Under the pieces are notes generated by a model. That model worked only from the letters and a program-made list of their open reading frames with translations, had not been told where the DNA came from and made no database searches. The translations under genes and the position numbers were made by a program. 64,000 nucleotides of DNA from Sclerodactyla briareus (lineage: Eukaryota; Echinodermata; Holothuroidea; Dendrochirotida; Sclerodactylidae), in the NCBI GenBank assembly GCA_026419785.1, contig JAODTK010005616.1, forward strand, positions 124,001 through 188,000. The letters are read 5' to 3'. Within the stretch, counting starts at the first letter, position 1, and each line of letters opens with the position of its first letter. Below are positions 4,600 to 52,620 of the stretch, piece after piece.

Positions 4600-4774
4600 T
4601 AGCGCTTGAAGGGGGGTCAGAAAAGTTACCACAGGGATATCTGGCTTGTGGCGAAAGCGTGTGTCATAGCGGAGTCGGTTTTTTTCTTCGATGTCTGGCT
4701 CTTCTTATAATTGCGAAGCAGATCGCCAAGCGTTGGATTGTTCACCAACTAATAGGGAACGTGAGCTGGGTTTA
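4600..4774 (+). rRNA. 28S rRNA fragment (pseudogene)
   Basis: From about 4614 the sequence follows the highly conserved peptidyl-transferase region of eukaryotic large-subunit rRNA. Recognisable words are gtcagaaaagttaccacag, ggcttgtggcg, cttcgatgtc, ggctcttc, gcgaagcag, gccaagcgttggattgttc and aatagggaacgtgagctgg. The match stops after 'gggttta', where the rRNA would continue towards the sarcin-ricin loop. It has substitutions and indels (for example gggatatctgg where gggataactgg is expected) and is not part of an rDNA unit: no 18S, 5.8S or other 28S sequence was seen nearby. It is therefore a dispersed 28S-derived pseudogene or the rRNA-like part of a SINE. Identity is very likely; the exact 5' limit is uncertain. 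Confidence 0.88.
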
Positions 4775-4954
4775 AGAGCCGCTTAGAGCCTCAAATGGTC
4801 ACATTATCCATGAATCTGAATAAGACCCCTAAAAGATTGATTGCGCCGATGACTGCTCCTGGCAGGGAAGTTGTTAGAGAGTACATTCCTCCTGGTCAAC
4901 GGTTTTTCCGATACATTTTTCAATTAATACTCGTTTCACTGACCACCGGCTGTC

Positions 4955-36270: not shown

Positions 36271-38168
36271 CTGGCCTAGGCGTACGGGACCCTTCTGATT
36301 TTTTGCAAAACATGATTTTCCTAAACGACAGAAAAGCTGCCCGAGCGAAGCACGGGAAATTGCATGTTTTTCGGAAGTTTTATTAAAAAATCCAGGCCAG
36401 TCAGCAGACATTTTGGGCCATTTCCTTCACCTTTGCTTTTTCTATCCAGATTTTCCCCGAATTATTGTCAAATTTGTGAAATGTGATTTCTGTTGCAGAA
36501 AGAAGAAAACTTAGAATCCGTCACTGAGTCTAGCTATATGTTTCACTCTGTCGGCAGCAGTGACGTAGACATTTCTGACTAGACGATGGGCTAACATTTA
36601 TTGGCCCTGTAGAGGGGTCTCAGGCAGTCAGGGTTCCCTCCCCTTTGAAAAGTGTTGGCTTTAGGTGCAATTCCATGCTCTAAATGGATTTTTTTTTTTG
36701 TGCGAAAATGTGCTGTCCACCAGATCAGTAAGTTCGCTTGGTTTGGGGTCCAGGTGAAAAAGGCCTGGAAGTCAGACAGGTTAGCCCATTCTATAGAACC
36801 CAGCTTTTTTTTTTGCTTTGTCCTCGTTAGGCTCGACCCGTTCACTTTTCACGGAGATTTTTGGCTGGAATATCACAAAGTTGTTCGAATTTTGTTGCAA
36901 TCAGAAGGTAAACACACAGAAGTCGAAAGGTGCGATTTCGCGGTTTTCCTGTTAGTAGTCTATGATTTAAAAAAAATGTTCTCATTTTTGCTAGAATATT
37001 ATCCATTCCTTGTCCTGTTCGTTTACATAACATATTCATTCCATATATAGCGCATTACCATGTAAGGAATATTCGACGCGCTCCACAATTTTGTTTTGCT
37101 GTCTCGTTTCGGATTAAAAAACATGGTCCCGGACGTTTTCGTGGAAATTGAGTGCACGATAAATTGTTTCCAATTGGAGTGCATCGTCTTAGCGCGATGC
37201 CTTCAGCTGGCTAAATGCGATGTCTGGAGCATTCCGTAAGATATAGTCCAGGTTTCTGGTGGAAAACTTGCATAAAAGCGTCATACGACCAAATTTGCCT
37301 CAAATGCTCGCTCATGACCTATAGAAGCAACATTACGGTCGTCTGCGCGCGCAGCGCGCGGAATTTCGGACAATCAGGTTTCGGAATCAAGGCCACTGAT
37401 GTCTTTGTGGGCTGGCTTTTCAATATTTTTTCAACCCACACAGCCACTTAACGGAAACTCTGTAACAGACATGTACTTTCGTCTTCATCGCGGGAACAAA
37501 AGGGGGGGGGGGACATTTTGAATATATGTCCCCCCCCCTCTCGAAAATGGGAGGGGGTAAAATGGCTGTCCCGGGAGCGGTGGGAATGGTTACACCTCTG
37601 CCTCATAGATCTTATCAATATATTAGGAAAGGTTGAGAAGATATAAATTCACCAGTGCTCTACATGATTACAGTCCATACGGCCCTTTGTTCCTCGTTAC
37701 CTCCCTTGGATCCTTGAACTTGTAGAAATCGAATCAACTGGAACTAATCTTACCGGGCATAGTGATCCCCCATTTTATCCTCTTCAAACCTATTCAGATG
37801 GAGAGGAAGCTCCTCCAGAGATGACAAGGACTCGTCTTCCTCCACCCGTCTCCCATTGGTTCATCACAGTTTGTTTCTCTGCCATCTTGAACCTGGTCAC
37901 GAACCTCCAAGTAGGCGACTGTGAACAATCAGAGAAATGCTTCATTTTTTTATTAATTATTTAATTTAGTTTTTTGAATTATATCATATTTGGGCAATGA
38001 TGGAACTACGCCTACTTCACTTCAGCTTTTCAATTTAGCTACACTAAGACCCCCCTCCCTCTCTCCCCTCTCCTCCCCCTACTAACATCTTATTTTTACA
38101 TGTCCAGGCTTTTGGCACTGTCTGCTTTTTACCCTACTTTTGTTTTTTCAAAACAATGCCATCGGGAC
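36271..38168. other. Non-coding, G/C-rich patch near 37.5 kb
   Basis: Holds a hairpin-like gcgcgcgcagcgcgcgg (37,345-37,361) and an inverted G/C patch (37,502-37,550, G run, ...ggacattttgaatatatgtcc, C run) that looks like a MITE end or hairpin. The 132-codon plus-strand frame at 36,652-37,050 is also open on the opposite strand and has no known motif. Confidence 0.45.
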
Positions 38169-39376
38169 TAGGGTTTGGCGCGGTATAACCGGTATCGTTA
38201 TTATTACTGGTACTCGCAGCACTGGTACCCGCAGTACCGAAGGGTCAAAGGCACAGTTACTATTAACGGTACGGCGGAATTAACCGGTAATTGGCTACCA
38301 ATGCGGTATAGTTGAAATTATCCGAATCCAGTGCTGTCAATATACTTGATTTTTTGCCCTCCATGCCGCCGCGTACGTCGCAACTTTAGCTGCAACCTGT
38401 TAAAATGATAAAACTGCCCCACGTGTGTGTTGTGCTAGCTTTGTATCTGCATTATTTGCGGAATATCCCAGCCGATGGGGGCATCGCAGCTTCACCGTAA
38501 CGTAACATTCAAAGCTGTATTTTATGCTAGCTCACTCGCGCAATGCTGTGCACTTCTTTTGAACATAGCCCTGCTTGGAACACGTGGTCATCACCAACTT
38601 ACTTTGCTTGAGCATCCAATTGCTCCAATTCCCCACGCGCGCTACACAACGATACCACCAAGTCCATGGACCGACGGCAATGATCGCTCCACACACCTTA
38701 ACTCAATAGGATTTTTCCCCTTTTCACCATTGACTACGTGGTTAAGGAGTGGATTTATTTACGGTCGTCGATCACGATACTCTGCAATTAATTTGCGTGG
38801 CCTACAGTCTATGAATGAACGAACGTGATTATTAGACAATTGGAGATGAAACCATCATACATAAAGGTTTAGCATGGATGTGGGTGGTTTTTTTTTACGA
38901 CTATTTAGATCGTGTGCCTTGCTGCGTTTCCTGCCTTGCTGAATCATCACAATTACGTTTGGGCTTACTCAGCCTGGTAATTGCTCTACGAGTAGCGATC
39001 TTTTTTTCAGCGAGCCTGAGCTTAAGGATGTAATATGGAAGAATACGATTGTACATATTTCTGCCTGCGTACTAGTACTACCAGCCCAACAGTGGTCACA
39101 TGCTGTGCTGTTTGCCATACTTACGTTTGTCATGATTCTTTTCAGACACTAAACGAAACATATGAACATCAATTTGATACACTAAATAATCTTTCTGAGG
39201 GCAATCTTTTACATTAAAAATAAAGGATACTGTATGCCCCATACAGTGTGCGCAAGTATGCAGTCGTAAACGAACTCTGACAGTATTTTGGCACATGAAT
39301 ACCGGTACCAGCCTAATACAGGTGGGCCAGGGCATCGGTAGTACCGGTCCAAAAAATATAGGTACCGCGCAACCCT
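38169..39376. mobile_element. Non-autonomous hAT-like element, copy 1 (complete)
   Basis: The left end reads tagggtttggcgcggtataa and the right end is the complement of tagggttgcgcggtacctat, giving inverted ends of about 20 bp. The 1.2-kb interior is non-coding and rich in GGTACC/GGTATC words near both ends. About 800 bp from the left end onwards match a second copy at 49,215-49,990. TAGGGTTG...GGTA ends with internal CCGGTA repeats are common in hAT-type MITEs. The 8-mers flanking the ends match at only 4 of 8, so no target duplication is claimed. Confidence 0.75.
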
Positions 39377-44199: not shown

Positions 44200-44485
44200 A
44201 ATGTATTTTTACATAGAGCGACCAATTCATGGATCCTAGATACGCGCTAACGACGCACCGTCCCAATAGCCAATATCACGCACACTGGCCAGACGTCAGT
44301 GGGTGTAAATCTCTGTCCAAACTCACCCTTTTATGTATCAGTTCCTTTCAGTTCACATAACAGCTGAAAGTTTTTCATCAATATTTTGTAACTGTGCATC
44401 AATTTTTGCAACACGCGCAGTACAAAAGTGAGTATCCGGATTAAAAGTCTAGGCTAGCCTTCATTGTGCACAATACGTTAGGCCA
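44200..44485. repeat. Direct repeat 5' of the APE+RT LINE
   Basis: Matches 47,870-48,195 in order: 'aattcatggatcc', 'caatagccaatatcacgcac', 'cagtgggtgtaaatct', 'ttttatgtatcagttccttt', 'cagttcacataac', 'gtgagtatccg', 'ttaaaagtctaggcta' and 'ttaggcca'. Copies differ by substitutions and many small indels. The repeat lies immediately upstream of the untranslated leader of the LINE. Confidence 0.8.
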
Positions 44486-44849
44486 TAGTGTGTACAAGGT
44501 AAATCTCCTACGCTTCTCTCTAATAACCCAAGGTTTATTGCTCTGTCAACGATTTGATACTCAAATATTTTGGATTACCTATTCATACTATTTCCAGGTC
44601 GCGAGCTATTTCATTCGAGCACATTTTTTGAATCCAACTTATCGGTCACATCGACGAACCTATACTATAGCCTACCACGTAGTTTGTATATGCAGGAATG
44701 GATCACTATTATTTATCTGGCAACGGCAACTATTTATTTGCAACGAATTGTCCGACATCTCAAGAACTCGACGAGACATTATTAGAATAACCAGGGGAGC
44801 TTGATCATCTTGTTGGATCGTTCTATCATTATGGAATGCGGAACACCGG

Positions 44850-47710
44850 ACACAATTTGAAAATTGGCACTCTAAACTGTCGTGGAATAACCAAAGAAGA
44901 AAACAACTTGAACGATTGAAGACCTCTGGAATCAACCTCCGCACCGCCAGCCAAAGAACAAAACTAAAGACCAGACACATTCAGATAATACGCATGCAAG
45001 GTCAACCCATCCATTCATATACTTTTCAAAGGTTCCTGTAGTAATTCCTATCACGGAGTAGGGTTTCTTTGTTAAGCAAGGAATGATTTACTTTCAAACA
45101 ATCAATCGCCTGCTCTAGTGACAGTTTATAGAACTTTTCAAAATAAAGTCCACCCTTTACATATTTAAAGGCATTTCCCCACCCGGTGTTAACTCACAGA
45201 ATCCTGAAGAACAGAACATTTCTATCACCATCTAGAAAACTAGTGATACAATAAACAACTGAATTAAGATATTGGTGATTTTACCTAAAGTCGGCGTCAT
45301 CCAACCCCTCCATCCAAAACACATCGAAACTATACCACAGGTAAAAACCAATACAAATGGAGAATTTGTTACCCGCTCTCATGTGCGAACCAATCCTCTA
45401 CTATGTAATACTTTCTACAGACACAACTTGAAGCATATCAACACTATACGAGTAATTCATACCTAATAACCACAGAATCCTACAGAAGTCAAATGACTAT
45501 ATCCTAGCCCATTAAACTTCAAATCTTTTACCACCGCGCTCGAGCATACAATATGGCCTCCATATCAACACTGTTCACAAAATCATTATAAGTGTTCACC
45601 CTAAACAGCCTCACGAGAAGGAAATTTATCCAGTCAATCAGGGTGTTAGAAGTAGTATTCAAGTCATCTTAATTCAAACCATGACTACAATGAAAGTGTA
45701 AACAAGGCTCTGAATGAAGCAATTTTTCTGAGTCCCCTCAAGCTAACTGAATACACTCTCATCAATTTGCCTAGAAAAATGCTGAAAAATAAACCTCACC
45801 CACAGGAAACGTCGTTTCATAATACTGAACTGAAATAGCAGACTATCAAAAAACATAAAGATCTCAGACTTCAAATCGACAACTGTAAAGACTACATAAG
45901 AAGAGAGAGTTAAAACTAAAAGGAATAAAATAATCAAAAAAGCAATGTCACTAGTCAAGCCACATGAACAAAAACTAATTGACGACATTACTGAAATTGG
46001 AACATAAGGATGCCTCTCATCGCTTCTTTAAGGCAATACAAAGTAGTGCAACAAAACAGTAAGAAGGATCCAATTTCAATTAGAATTGATGATTGACAGC
46101 GTTGGAGATACAGATGCAAAACTTAAAGAAAATCAATCAAGCCAACTTTTAAAACACTTTCAACTGGTAACACCCAGAACAAAACCCACGTGTCCCAGGA
46201 AAACTAAGCAACCATTTGATGAAGATGAACTTTAAACGAGCGGATTTTGCAGCATAATTAAGAATAACAATCCCCCTGTTGTGACCAATCACAGCTGAAC
46301 ATCTCAATATGCCCCCCTGCACCCATAAATACATAGCTGATGTACTGAATAACATAGCCGAAAACGGAGAAATACCATAGAAATTTGACAAGGAATCTAA
46401 CCCCATTTCAAAACGCAGGAAAAACTAAGGCCCACAAAAATTTAAGACCTTGATCTTACTACTTGTCAACCCTGAGGAAAATCCGCATTTGTATTACACG
46501 GAGACTCCGCCCCCTCATTGATGAACATATACGTTCCCGTCACCCAAACAGCCTATACCTCAGTGAGGCTGCAGAGCCTCGTGTTCGCGTCAAATTTTTA
46601 GTCTGAAAAAGCCTTAACTTCAATAGGATATAACATCAACCTTCTATTGCTTGACATAAGCAAGGCTTTCATACCATTCCAAGAGGCACACTAATAATGA
46701 TTGGCAACAGATCCTCGAGAGCGACGAACTCTATCTCCTTTCAACTATTACGGAACAATGTTTCATACAGGTTCCAAATTAACGGCAAACTAGGAAATCC
46801 TGTCAGCACGAACATCGCGTCCCCCCAGGGTGACAGTGCGAGGGGCCTTATTCTTTATACCATACCTGGCCAACTCTTTAAAATCGGATGAAAATGACAT
46901 TGATGCGTTACCAAACCATCTCAGTTAGTTTGATCATGACTACAAAGCGCAAATAGTAATACGACAACTTTTCACCGTGGACCACCATACGCTGATGATA
47001 TCTCTTGGCCGACCTGGAGAACATATATTACAGGACATCGAAGAGCGAGTGACTGGAACTGACAAGAAGAAATCTAAAATAAACGCACGAAAACTGGAAA
47101 TTCTCATCACCAATAAATGGCAATGAACTGGAAGAAAATGTAAAATATGTAGAAGTTTGTTAGAAACAGAGAAATAACAACAAAAAGAAATTTGGTATCC
47201 AACAATGCTTTCACCACTCTATCAACAATTTTCAAGAGCAGACGAATAATAGCAAGCATCAAACTCCGGAGTTTCGATGCCCTTTAACAGAGGATTTTCT
47301 GTATAATTGTGACAACTGTGGGGTACAACGAAAATCTTTATTACAAAATTGACACTTTCCAAAGAAGAATACTCCGCAATGTTCTCACAATCAGATGGAC
47401 CAATAACAATTGGCTACCAAACGACGAACTCTATGATGTGACCAATCAAATCCCTTGGTCTTCCGTTGTAGCCTAGACTTTGAGATTTTTTGTCACGTCG
47501 CGAGACTCCAAGAGAAGCTCAGCGAAGATCGCTCTGAGAGAATTGAGACATACTACTAAGCCAGGTGGAAGACCTGTGACTACTTTTGCTCGGAAAAATC
47601 AAATCGCTATTCCAGGACATCAACATTAACATTTCGATGAAGCAATACACCTTGCGCAAGATGCGTGATACGTGGCGGAGATTGATCACTGACCATGGTC
47701 GATAGACGAG
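44850..47710 (+). mobile_element. LINE with APE endonuclease and RT, decayed, nearly full length
   Basis: The plus-strand frames follow a complete pol ORF. The apurinic-endonuclease start is KIGTLNCRGI (44,860-44,889). Then come 'GVGFFVKQGM', NTNGEF and LLCNTFYRHNLKHINT (45,355-45,455), and DYILA (45,495-45,509, part of the catalytic 'IDYIL' block). RT follows: HKYIADVLNNIAENGEIP (46,322-46,378), 'PISK' and 'KFKTLILL' words, 'LLLDISKAF'-like, FQINGKLGNP (46,770-46,800), 'PQGDSARG' and PPYADDISW (YADD at 46,988-46,999). The C-terminus runs through 'RRLRFFGHV'-like words to about 47,690. Stops and frameshifts are scattered throughout. The R1/jockey-like lineage is inferred. No tail repeat was seen; the element is bracketed by direct repeats. 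Confidence 0.82.
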
Positions 47711-47869
47711 AGATACTCAACCTACTCTAACTACTACCTACTACTATCTGGTGTAAACAACCACTGACGGAACGCCGAATCATGAATACAAGGTGTGTAT
47801 CCTGCGTAATGTGAAACCAACATTTCACTGAGCCTAAATTTTTGGAAGCCGACGTTGCCTTTTCTGAAC

Positions 47870-48195
47870 CTCCGTGAGCGTCGCAATTCAGGATCCGAGA
47901 TTACCGCTACGACGTAACGTCAACAATAGCCATTTCATCACGCACAGCCGGCCGCAGGACTTCAGTGGGTGTAAATCTCATGTTACAAACTCAATGGACT
48001 TACTCGTTTTCGAACTTTTCACACACTTTTTTATGTATCAGTTCCTTCCAGTTCACATAACGCTGAACTGTTTTCATCATCAATGTTTGTACCTGTGCTC
48101 AATTTGCAAACAGCGCAGTAACAAAAAGTGAGTATCCGACATTAAAAAAAGTCTAGGCTAAGCTCTTCAGTGTGCAACAAAAACGGTAGGCCCAC
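47870..48195. repeat. Direct repeat 3' of the APE+RT LINE
   Basis: Second copy of the segment at 44,200-44,485 (see words listed there), slightly longer because of small insertions. It starts about 160 bp after the end of the RT frame. Similarity ends at 'taggccca' (48,187-48,194). Confidence 0.8.
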
Positions 48196-49214
48196 AGGCT
48201 ATCACGCGCTGACCAGGGCCTTAGCCAGGAAGTGGCAGTAGGGGGTCTCACCTGTGACTGATTGCTGAGAAGACTATCCATCCTGGCGCCCGCGGCGCCA
48301 GCGCGACCAACCCCCCCCACGAGGTGGGGTCATGGCCCGCCTTCGGCCCCTGGGCCCCAGCCTTTTTCACTGTTTTTTTTGTTGACACAATTGGGGTAAA
48401 ATGCATCTCAGGAGGTGTGAAAACATCAGCCCGCCTGATCTTTTTGGCAATTACAAACATAAATGGCTATGAAACACTAGTTTCCAAAGTGTAACGTCCA
48501 TGGTAGTATAAGTATATCATCACAGTCACTTTTATCACCGCTTTGCTCTGAATGCACGCGCCATGCAGCGGTACTTTCCTCCAAACTCACACGATGACTC
48601 ATGCTGCTAAACTATAATATAACTCAATTGGCAAAAACTTTTCCAGCATGGCTTGTGTCGCCACCGCATTTGAAAAAATACACTAATAATCGAACCAACA
48701 GCAAGATGTTTTCACCGATACGGGTAACGGACTACGTGTACTCAAGCTGTATGGCGAGACGATGTATTCAGAATATTGGGACTAGGAAAATGAGCGAAAT
48801 GTTTTTTCAATACTGGTATGTACTGGTACATGAATTATACATTTATTTCAGGCAGCCGAAAAACACACGAATATAATTATGCCTTCGTATAAAACCTAAG
48901 AGTGGACTACGGTTAGGATGAACGTTATATTTGTGTTTTGTTGCAGCACTTGAGCTTTCGTTTTGTGTGGTGGTAACAGCGTCACCTGACTGGATCACAT
49001 ATAATATTGGACATTGCCCTATAACTAGCATTCATGAACCAAAATCTTTGTTTGGGTGGTTTCAGACCCTCAGGGCTCGCATTAGCGTATCGCATTGCAT
49101 TGCTGCCTTAGTGAGGCTGTTGCGACACCTTTGGGTTTTTTTGTTTTTTTGTTTTTTCGATCTAAAAGTCTACAAGTTCAGGCTGCTTTTTATACAATCT
49201 GCAAAACAGTGGAT
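48196..49214. other. Intergenic, MITE-like start
   Basis: 'ccagggccttagccaggaag' (48,211-48,231) resembles the CAGGGCCGTAGCCAGG ends of many hAT MITEs. The palindromic ctggcgcccgcggcgccag (48,282-48,300) and C runs follow, but no matching right end was found. Otherwise featureless. Confidence 0.4.
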
Positions 49215-49990
49215 TAGGGTTGCGCGGTATACCGTTATCGTTATTAACAGTACTCGCAGCACCGTACTCGCAGTAGGCCTACTGCTGGTAAAATGCACCG
49301 TTACTATTACCGGTACTGACCGGAAATTACCGCTACTGTATCCCGGTACATTGAAATACCAAATCCATTGCTGACTAGTTTGTATTTTTTGCCAATCCCA
49401 GCCGCCGCCGCTTACAACGCACTTATCGCATCTGTTAAACTGTCCCACGTGTGTTGCAGCTGTGTATTTGCATCATTTGCCGACTATCCAACCGCTGCGG
49501 ACCACGCAGCTTCACAGTAACGTGTATGCAAAGCTGTATGTTGCTGGCTCACCTCGGCCCGTGTGTGCAGACTTTCAAACATAGGCCCTGTTTTGAACAC
49601 GTGGCACCACCTATGCTGTTCAACAAGCATCCCAGTGTGCTCCCACGTCCCACTGCGTGCTACACAACTATACCAGGTCTACGGACCGACGGCAACAAAC
49701 CTATCGCACACACCCAACTTCGATAGGATTTCCCGTTGGCTATGTGATTTATTTACGATCGTCGATAAGCGATACTACAATATAATTTGCGTTAGCCTAC
49801 AATTCTATGAATGAACGAAAGTGAATAATTAGACAATTGGTGGATAAAACAATCATACATGGAAGTTTGGCATTGATTTGGTAGCGTTTACGACTATTTT
49901 TAGATCGTGCCTCGCTTCGGTCTTCTTGCTAAAATAATCACGAGTTCCGTTATAGTAATCGTAGCGACCTGTTTCGGCCGGCGGGGCTGG
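49215..49990. mobile_element. Non-autonomous hAT-like element, copy 2 (3' truncated)
   Basis: Starts with tagggttgcgcggtatac and aligns over about 780 bp to 38,169-39,020, including 'cccacgtgtgttgca', 'acgcagcttcacagtaacgt', 'gaacacgtgg', 'gaccgacggcaa', 'tttatttacgatcgtcgat' and 'tatgaatgaacgaa'. The right terminal inverted repeat of copy 1 was not found, so the 3' end is lost or too diverged. Same orientation as copy 1. Confidence 0.75.
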
Positions 49991-52620
49991 CTTACATACA
50001 TTACATACATGAAAGAATGTAAGATAAGTTTGAACATGCACAGGTCAAAATTTATGGACGGTAAAATGAAAAGTTTTGGCAGACCAACAGGAGATGTTTT
50101 GTTCATACAAAAACAAAAATGATATCGCGATATTATTCACACAGTAGGCTAGCGCACAACGTTCGTTGCCTGGGCTTGTACTGACTGTGGTGACGCTAGC
50201 GATAACGTTCCGCCGACCTCGTATGGTGATATTCTCACTCCGATTTAGAAATTTATTAGTCTTGCAAGGCAATATGGCCAATTTATAATTGGTTTCAGCG
50301 ATTAACGATTCGGTTTAAATTAGGCCTAGGCTAGGCAAGGCTATGTTCGTTCTCCAAGTTTATTTACGTTCAATTGGGAGGCTGGACAGGGCCATTATAT
50401 AGGCCGTCTCAAAAGCCGTCTCATCCGGAATCGGCCGTCCTTCATTTTGATTTCGCCGTCTCAAAGACGGCGAGACGCATCGCTAAGGCACTGGCGCTGA
50501 CGTAATGCCGAATCCATGAATGTGTTTAATAGTTTGAAGTCAATGTAACAGTTAATGCTGAATATGGGTTTCTATCTTCAATATATCCGAACAGCAAAAC
50601 TGGGAGCAGAATCCATCAAGAATTTTGACAGAAAATTCGTTTGGTTTGGTATGTATGAAAGTGTGCACTAAATGATTGAATTCATTCGTACATGGCACTA
50701 TATTGTCTTGTTCCTGGCAATTTTCTTCCGAGCCCCGTTTGGTATGTCCACTGATGAAGAATTATGAGCGTGTTTTGAAAATTCTAGCGCATCTATCTTA
50801 TGTATACGCGTATATTGGAAAAAAAAAAAAAAAACACCCAGTTAAAGCGAGAGAGCCTAGAATCGCAACGAAACCCGACCCACCACAATACTTATCCCCC
50901 CACACCTATACTAGGCCTATCCTAAGGGTAAGTGCAGAGGCCTAGCCTAGGCCTAGGCTAGGCGGTTTCAACGAGAAAAAAATCAATTGTGTTTTCATGG
51001 TCAGTCAGTCCAATACAATGAGATTACTTACAGTCTGAGCGTAGCTTCGTGGGTGAAAGTATGACATGAAATAAAGGCTGAACTGGAACTTTTATTGAAA
51101 TGATGATACCGCCTAACGTTCCACTTCGTTTCCGGTTTTGCGCGTGAGAATTCGGCCACAGAATGCTAAACGCTTCACCGGGGTATGAAGGAAACAAAAT
51201 TCTGCTCCTAAGGCTCATGTCGTCCACTGCTCATGCCTGCAGTGCAAGTGTTGGCATCGTACTATTCTACAAAGACGCAACCACACGTAGAAAGAGGTTG
51301 GAGGGGGGGGGGGGGGAGTTCAGAGAAAAGTGGTATTAATCAATTTCTGTGTGGGAAAAATATGTTAAGTATGGAGGCTCATAAAAGTTGAGGGTCACGA
51401 CCCTCGACGCCTCCCCACTGCTCCAGTGACCGTGTCCTTGCTATCCTGGCCCGTCAGTCTTTGTGGAGGACTATTTTCGCCTGGGGCATTCATTTAATGT
51501 TCACGTTCTTCGGTTATCGTCGAGATAAACTTTTTGAGGTTTGACCGGCGATAACGATGGGAACTCGGAAACAGGGCTGGGAGGGACATTGCATTGGCAC
51601 ACTTCACCGCACCCTCACTTTCCAATATAGACAGGATATCAGATGCGCAAGACAGCTAGGTTGTCGCACCACGCTGCTTGAGGATTCTCCAGAAAAAGCT
51701 TTCTTCACACTGAGTCGGTAGCCTTTCATGAGTCGATATAGGCAACAAAGAAGCTTCTAACAAACTCGTGCATAATCCGCTCAAACGGAGCACATCAAAG
51801 AACCTTAATATAACAGATATATGCGATTTACAGTGGGGCTTCTAGAAGTGGAACCAGACTGTCGGGACTCTGAGGCTCTAGCACCTATCACGAATGCTCT
51901 CCAATGACTACAAGTGATCCCATCAAAGACTTTGCCAAGCACCAGGCCCGTAGTCAAGGGGGTGGGAAAAGGGGGACACCCCCTTTTTTAATATTTCGCA
52001 CCGGCCCACAAATATTTTAGTCCGTTTATGCGTAGTGCTCTGGCTATACCGTGACGGCCTGCCAGACACCGAAGAAGTAGAACCTAAATAGTTTTATGAC
52101 AATTAGACAGTCTCGAGCATCACTATTCCCTTTCCAGGCTGAAACAACGAGTCTGCGTTTCCACGGTATGACACAAGACCTTCAAACCGAGCAATACATA
52201 AGCTACCATGCAACCGAATTTGAGAGCGGTCTGGCCACTAATCCAGAGGGTCTCCGGATGTATGTCACAACCCCTAGGACCCCCCCCCCCCATTCCAACC
52301 CCCTCCACCCATTCCAACTACTCCATTCCCCCAATAGTGGGCATATATCACGAACAACAGGCGGTTTGGGCACCGCAGATGCAAATGAATGCACCAACCA
52401 TCTGGATTCCCGCAACTTCGGGATCAGCCTTGACAGGGGCGGCGATCATGGAGGGGGGGGGGGGGGACGGGGGGACGGCGTCCCCCCCCAATATTTCGGT
52501 TGGGGGGACGCAATGCATTTTGTCCCCCCCCCCCCAGTATTTGAGCCCGACTGCTTTTTCGCTGACACTGTATCCGACAAATCCAGCAGTAACCGTGTTT
52601 AAACAGATGCATGATGACAC
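49991..52620. other. Non-coding, several MITE-like fragments
   Basis: Contains 'gccgtctcaaaagccgtctc' short repeats (50,402-50,470), an A15 run (50,820), 'aggcctagcctaggcctagg' palindromic words (50,938-50,960), a G14 run (51,303-51,316), and MITE-like ends at 51,945-52,015 and 52,436-52,530. The 168- and 172-codon frames at 52.1-52.7 kb read through homopolymers and are not considered genes. Confidence 0.45.

Follow-up and report, generated by a model that had tools for sequence, protein, structure and literature searches.

The window, a 64,000-nucleotide stretch of the Sclerodactyla briareus genome (contig JAODTK010005616.1), contains a decayed LINE that almost certainly lies nested within one copy of an older, ~345-bp inverted-repeat element, with a second copy of that element nearby. 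The arrangement is ordinary nested mobile DNA that merely resembles a LINE with long terminal repeats. Two separate repeat families are present and their boundaries can be placed, the LINE interrupts one copy of the small element (copy A) beside an uninterrupted neighbour (copy B), and the same arrangement is absent from the other loci examined. Among the three explanations offered by an earlier sequence-only reading, insertion into a pre-existing repeat is the one borne out, in that the LINE splits copy A and copy B is its neighbour. That reading overlooked the independent, multicopy nature of the repeat, the degenerate (CTA)n tail that the LINE has in common with most of its relatives, and the ~37 bp past this tail (47751-47787), which are the missing 3' end of copy A. 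The features are collected in Table 1.

Table 1. Coordinates of the nested elements in the window, with the basis for each.
Feature	Position	Strand	Basis
Copy A of the small, MITE-like inverted-repeat element, left piece	44225..44498	+	73-78% identity to eight genomic copies
Putative target-site duplication, left copy GTGTGTACAAG, 11 bp	44488..44498	+	Sequence, alignment, shared changes
Decayed LINE, 5'-truncated by ~70 bp, endonuclease-like and RT-like regions, (CTA)n tail	44499..~47749	+	Both boundaries, coding remnants
LINE 5' untranslated leader, truncated	44499..44850	+	Other LINE copies match from 44499 onward
Reverse transcriptase and C-terminal remnants, frameshifted	46754..47631	+	tblastn with sister-copy peptides
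LINE 3' end, degenerate (CTA)n tail	47712..47749	+	Most of 30 aligned tails (29 other loci) share this end and its CTA runs
Putative target-site duplication, right copy GTGTAAACAAC	47751..47761	+	Sequence, alignment, shared changes
Copy A, right end, terminating CGAATCATGAAT	47751..47787	+	Alignment to eight intact copies; blastn
Small element, copy B, uninterrupted, degenerate 3' terminal repeat	47886..~48234	+	77-82% identity to eight other copies

The two alike segments of ~300 bp in the same orientation, which had first drawn attention to the region, are real. Segments 44216-44484 and 47876-48192 align on the same strand at 72.2% identity over 324 columns (E 7e-36), with ungapped cores of 41 bases at 90% and 22 bases at 95%. 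Both are copies of a separate multicopy element of ~345 bp with terminal inverted repeats of ~13 bp (ATTCATGGATYCG). A search of the genome (319 Mb, 3171 contigs) with the upstream segment as query yielded 49 matching pieces, with 40 places scored of 155 candidates, the window included. Twenty-five of the 39 other places were examined, with flanks of 1500 bp for seven and ~500 bp for the rest; L005 and L072 among them, whose flanks are shared, may represent a single locus that was duplicated. Alignment of seven copies with 120-bp flanks revealed common ends, ATTCATGGATCCG... and ...CGAATCCATGAAT, that are mutually inverted repeats, outside which the sequence is dissimilar. Both ends are clean in 18 of the 25 copies, 16 of them 332-351 bp long; the two longer ones are an abutting head-to-tail dimer (L086) and a copy with an internal partial duplication (L079). 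At L004, a second copy, at 67%, is located upstream.

Copy A begins at the small-element 5' end ATTCATGGATCC and lacks ~29 bp internally relative to copy B, and its left piece, 44225-44498, reaches roughly 30 bp short of the element end. The remainder is found on the far side of the LINE, where the stretch 47751-47787 (GTGTAAACAACCACTGACGGAACGCCGAATCATGAAT) adjoins the LINE tail, aligns with the final 22-37 bp of the small element and resumes the element where the left piece ends. Against each of eight intact copies selected among the 25, its alignment score exceeds all 500 shuffles. When 3157 stretches of 40 bases in the window were scanned as a control, a single one scored higher; it lies at 50481 and is another element end of the same type. 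The shortness of this right piece is a point against nesting: blastn detects it at E 0.008-0.009 with three of nine queries, the other six giving nothing at E <= 0.01. The same shortness lets the left piece of copy A and the uninterrupted copy B pass for terminal repeats of the LINE. Copy B starts after a gap of 98 bp from the end of copy A. A further small-element 3' end of 28 bp, 96% identical to that of L002, lies at 50494-50521 of the window; the family interior does not adjoin it, and several element types may therefore have these ends.

A refinement of this reading would derive copies A and B from a local tandem duplication, not from separate insertions, with the LINE then entering one of them. 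The abutting dimer at L086 points to occasional tandem duplication of the small element, as does the partial internal duplication at L079, and the motif GAGCG.C precedes both window copies. Beyond that motif, however, the sequences preceding the two copies (for copy B, the spacer) are alike only at shuffle level, with a score of 21 against a shuffle mean of 21 and with 505 of 1000 shuffles scoring at least as well. With the window spacer bearing no sign of the event, local duplication is possible but somewhat improbable.

The insertion sites of the small element have a character of their own. Among the 18 clean copies, no target-site duplication of 2-10 bp was found, identity between the flanks of the same copy being about that of mismatched pairs, and T occupies position -1 in 13 of the 18 and position +1 in 12 of the 18 (L002-L008, L071-L088). 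These properties could mark the small element as a distinct inverted-repeat transposon, characterized by T-T insertion, no target duplication, truly terminal inverted repeats and ready formation of head-to-tail dimers, in which case the A/B pair would be one of its products, later hit by the LINE. We consider this proposal unlikely.

The limits of the LINE were drawn from its best-scoring loci; the 3' search scored 40 of 812 candidate places and the 5' search 40 of 58. Some of these loci depend on each other: the flanks of L058 and L059 are identical, and L046 and L021 overlap. The 3' matches end at window positions 47736-47752 in 22 of the 29 other loci, mostly after a CTA run; they end earlier in L017, L019, L023 and L029 and later in L021 (at 47755) and in L027 and L028 (at 47767). 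The alignment of L027 and L028 to 47767, 17 bp beyond the boundary, is a second point against nesting, although the small element gives no match at E 1e-3 in either locus. The 30 tails from the 29 other loci are mostly CTA runs, weak in L017, L019, L025, L029 and L030. The earlier remark that the tail has no oligo(A) or ATT repeat is thus literally correct, but it passed over a simple tail, the degenerate (CTA)n. Beyond the tail, the sequence varies by locus, with the exception of five of the 29 (L020, L023, L026, L031 and L037), whose 3' flanks have pieces of another repeat family in common; the 3' flanks of L011 and L027 show weaker matches. The presence of that family in five flanks suggests that the LINE may often insert into or next to this particular repeat.

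At the 5' end, 28 of the 29 other loci were anchored and 27 were compared with L040. A further ~70 bp of leader (GGAAGACAACAGTGGCGTG...) is present in 24 of these 27 copies, with L050 (borderline), L055 and L065 under the threshold. In the window this leader was not found (score 15 against a shuffle maximum of 29), which indicates that the LINE has lost a little of its 5' end and lies immediately against the repeat. Individual copies show rearrangements. The 5' leader at L044 contains repeated GTGTTGTCAGCATC units, and at L012 (G000:C1986) several LINE 3' ends form a head-to-tail series, the sequence running into more LINE past the tail. At L021/L046 (G000:C2045), the 3' part of the LINE (from 46269) lies beside its own 5' leader in inverted orientation, an arrangement that twin priming would yield.

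Target-site duplication by the LINE was testable in 22 of the 30 3' loci; the remainder are the window's own locus (L009) and six others whose 5' end lies outside the locus, together with L027, which has two matches. Nine of the 22 copies score as high as the best 3% of mismatched pairs; in eight a repeat of 10-16 bp lies beside the tail, and one (L012) is less clean. No clear duplication is seen in the other 13. Examples are ACGCTCAGCACT in L017 and AACGGCAACGGCAACG in L030. In the window, alignment to intact copies of the small element pairs GTGTGTACAAG (44488-44498) with GTGTAAACAAC (47751-47761), and eight of the 11 bases match in what is probably a true target-site duplication. At position 4 both flanks carry T against C in all 25 other copies, and at position 10 they carry A against C in 24 of 24, one further copy having a gap; two base changes common to both flanks fit a duplicated stretch of one copy. 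Like the 13 copies with no clear duplication, strict scoring speaks against nesting: it prefers another match between the window flanks, the 8-mer TACAAGGT, whose score of 16 is reached by ~6% of mismatched pairs. Given this preference, the 11-bp duplication is likely, not proven.

A history consistent with nesting would start from two same-strand copies of the ~345-bp non-autonomous inverted-repeat element, about 100 bp apart. Target-primed reverse transcription of a LINE RNA would then have set a slightly 5'-truncated LINE with a (CTA)n tail within the 3' part of the upstream copy and created a target duplication of ~11 bp. The upstream repeat would thereby have been split into a left piece of ~270 bp and a right piece of ~37 bp. 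The proposed order of events finds a parallel in the sequence identities, which are 83-88% between the LINE 3' part and its relatives and 73-78% between copy A and other small-element copies; these relative ages agree with entry of the LINE into an older element.

Outside the window, the two families were sought at each other's loci. The small-element query was run against loci L009-L068, of which L009 and L039 are the window's own and positive, and it found no close copy at any of the 29 5' loci or the 29 3' loci. Weak, distant relatives lie at L015 (65-67%, 390 bp away) and L030 (71%, 185 bp away), both on the 5' side of the LINE. In the reverse direction, none of the 25 small-element loci has the LINE at E 1e-3. 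The sequence-only reading had called for such a survey, with LINE and repeat searched separately, and its LTR-like explanation fails on the result. A LINE whose ~300-bp segments were part of the mobile unit and copied along with it, in an LTR-like or pseudo-LTR arrangement, would fit the sight of one LINE bracketed by two alike same-strand segments; yet those segments differ by 28%, the right piece of copy A places the LINE inside the repeat, and no other examined LINE locus has a close copy of the repeat, leaving this explanation with next to no probability. A head-to-tail pair of LINEs, with the downstream copy reduced to its 5' leader, is just as improbable: the repeat does lie directly upstream of the LINE leader, and tandem LINE 3' ends exist at L012, but the LINE's own leader, as seen in 24 of 27 copies, differs from the repeat, the downstream segment continues as small element right up to its distal end and not as LINE sequence, and no LINE copy among the 29 loci starts with the repeat.

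The coding sequence of the LINE is decayed. Six translations of the window LINE (three frames of two spans) gave no match in Pfam. In tblastn searches, sister-copy peptides hit two parts of the window LINE, 44877-45225 in the endonuclease region (E 1e-9) and 46754-47631 in the RT and C-terminal part, in multiple frames and with stops present. RVT_1 is recognized in one of five sister-copy peptides (1.6e-5, below the Pfam gathering cut-off) and DUF6451 in two of five (1e-5 and 1.8e-4, below the Pfam cut-offs). The rows for YjhX_toxin (0.086) and Dehydratase_LU (0.38) among the sister-peptide Pfam results were dismissed as chance-level. The two endonuclease-side peptides match no endonuclease family in Pfam, so that the label "APE" is our own reading of the endonuclease region. 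The LINE described earlier between the two segments is confirmed in weak form, as a decayed element, and its description as nearly complete holds for its length (~3.25 kb, with ~70 bp of leader gone) and not for its coding capacity. The length is ~3.3 kb in the two copies of the family with both ends seen, and no intact reading frame was seen in the copies inspected. The family is LINE-like in its common 3' end, simple tail, variable 5' truncation and target-site duplication (nine of 22 copies).

Two other features of the window lie apart from these elements. A fragment of eukaryotic 28S rRNA at 4636-4784 (Rfam RF02543, 88 bits) is the sole Rfam match in the window at the gathering threshold. 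Another related repeat pair, at 38165-38480 and 49211-49500, has 70% identity over 327 columns.

These results remove a candidate "LINE with terminal repeats" and illustrate how a split short repeat with an intact copy close by can imitate LTRs. A useful check in similar cases is to seek the lost far end of the split repeat directly beyond the LINE tail. The analysis also yields, as a by-product, two decayed repeat families, of which the small one, with its T-T insertion, lack of target duplication and dimer, is mildly unusual.

Penelope-like elements with pseudo-LTRs and HeT-A are terminal-repeat arrangements of non-LTR-type elements, and the arrangement in the window resembles them superficially, as a reverse-transcriptase element amid direct repeats. 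It differs in that its repeats belong to a separate element and in its absence from every other locus examined. Miniature inverted-repeat transposable elements (MITEs) are short, multicopy and bounded by terminal inverted repeats, and the small element has all three features. Unlike MITEs, it shows no fixed-length target-site duplication in its 18 clean copies.

Helentron-associated elements (HINEs, including DINE-1) offer a second comparison for the small element. They are reported to prefer insertion between T and T and to have a 3' inverted repeat ~38-60 bp inside the element end (PMC4067079). The small element is similar in being mostly T-flanked on both sides, as a preference and not an absolute rule, with no target duplication, but its inverted repeats lie at the very ends and are not subterminal (PMC4067079).

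The anatomy of the LINE appears to resemble that of the RTE clade, whose members are expected to have a length of about 3.2-3.9 kb, one large endonuclease and RT frame, and a very short, repeat-rich 3' untranslated region. Length and tail fit this profile, but no intact frame was seen. RTE elements are described with a size and a short repeat tail like those found here (PMC1291365) and with simple repeats immediately after the stop codon (PMC2887409). The tail unit here is CTA, whereas RTE elements have an A-rich tetramer or pentamer; the likeness extends to a length of ~3.3 kb, RT-like and endonuclease-like regions, frequent 5' truncation and a minimal 3' untranslated region that finishes in simple repeats of a short unit (PMC1291365, PMC2887409).
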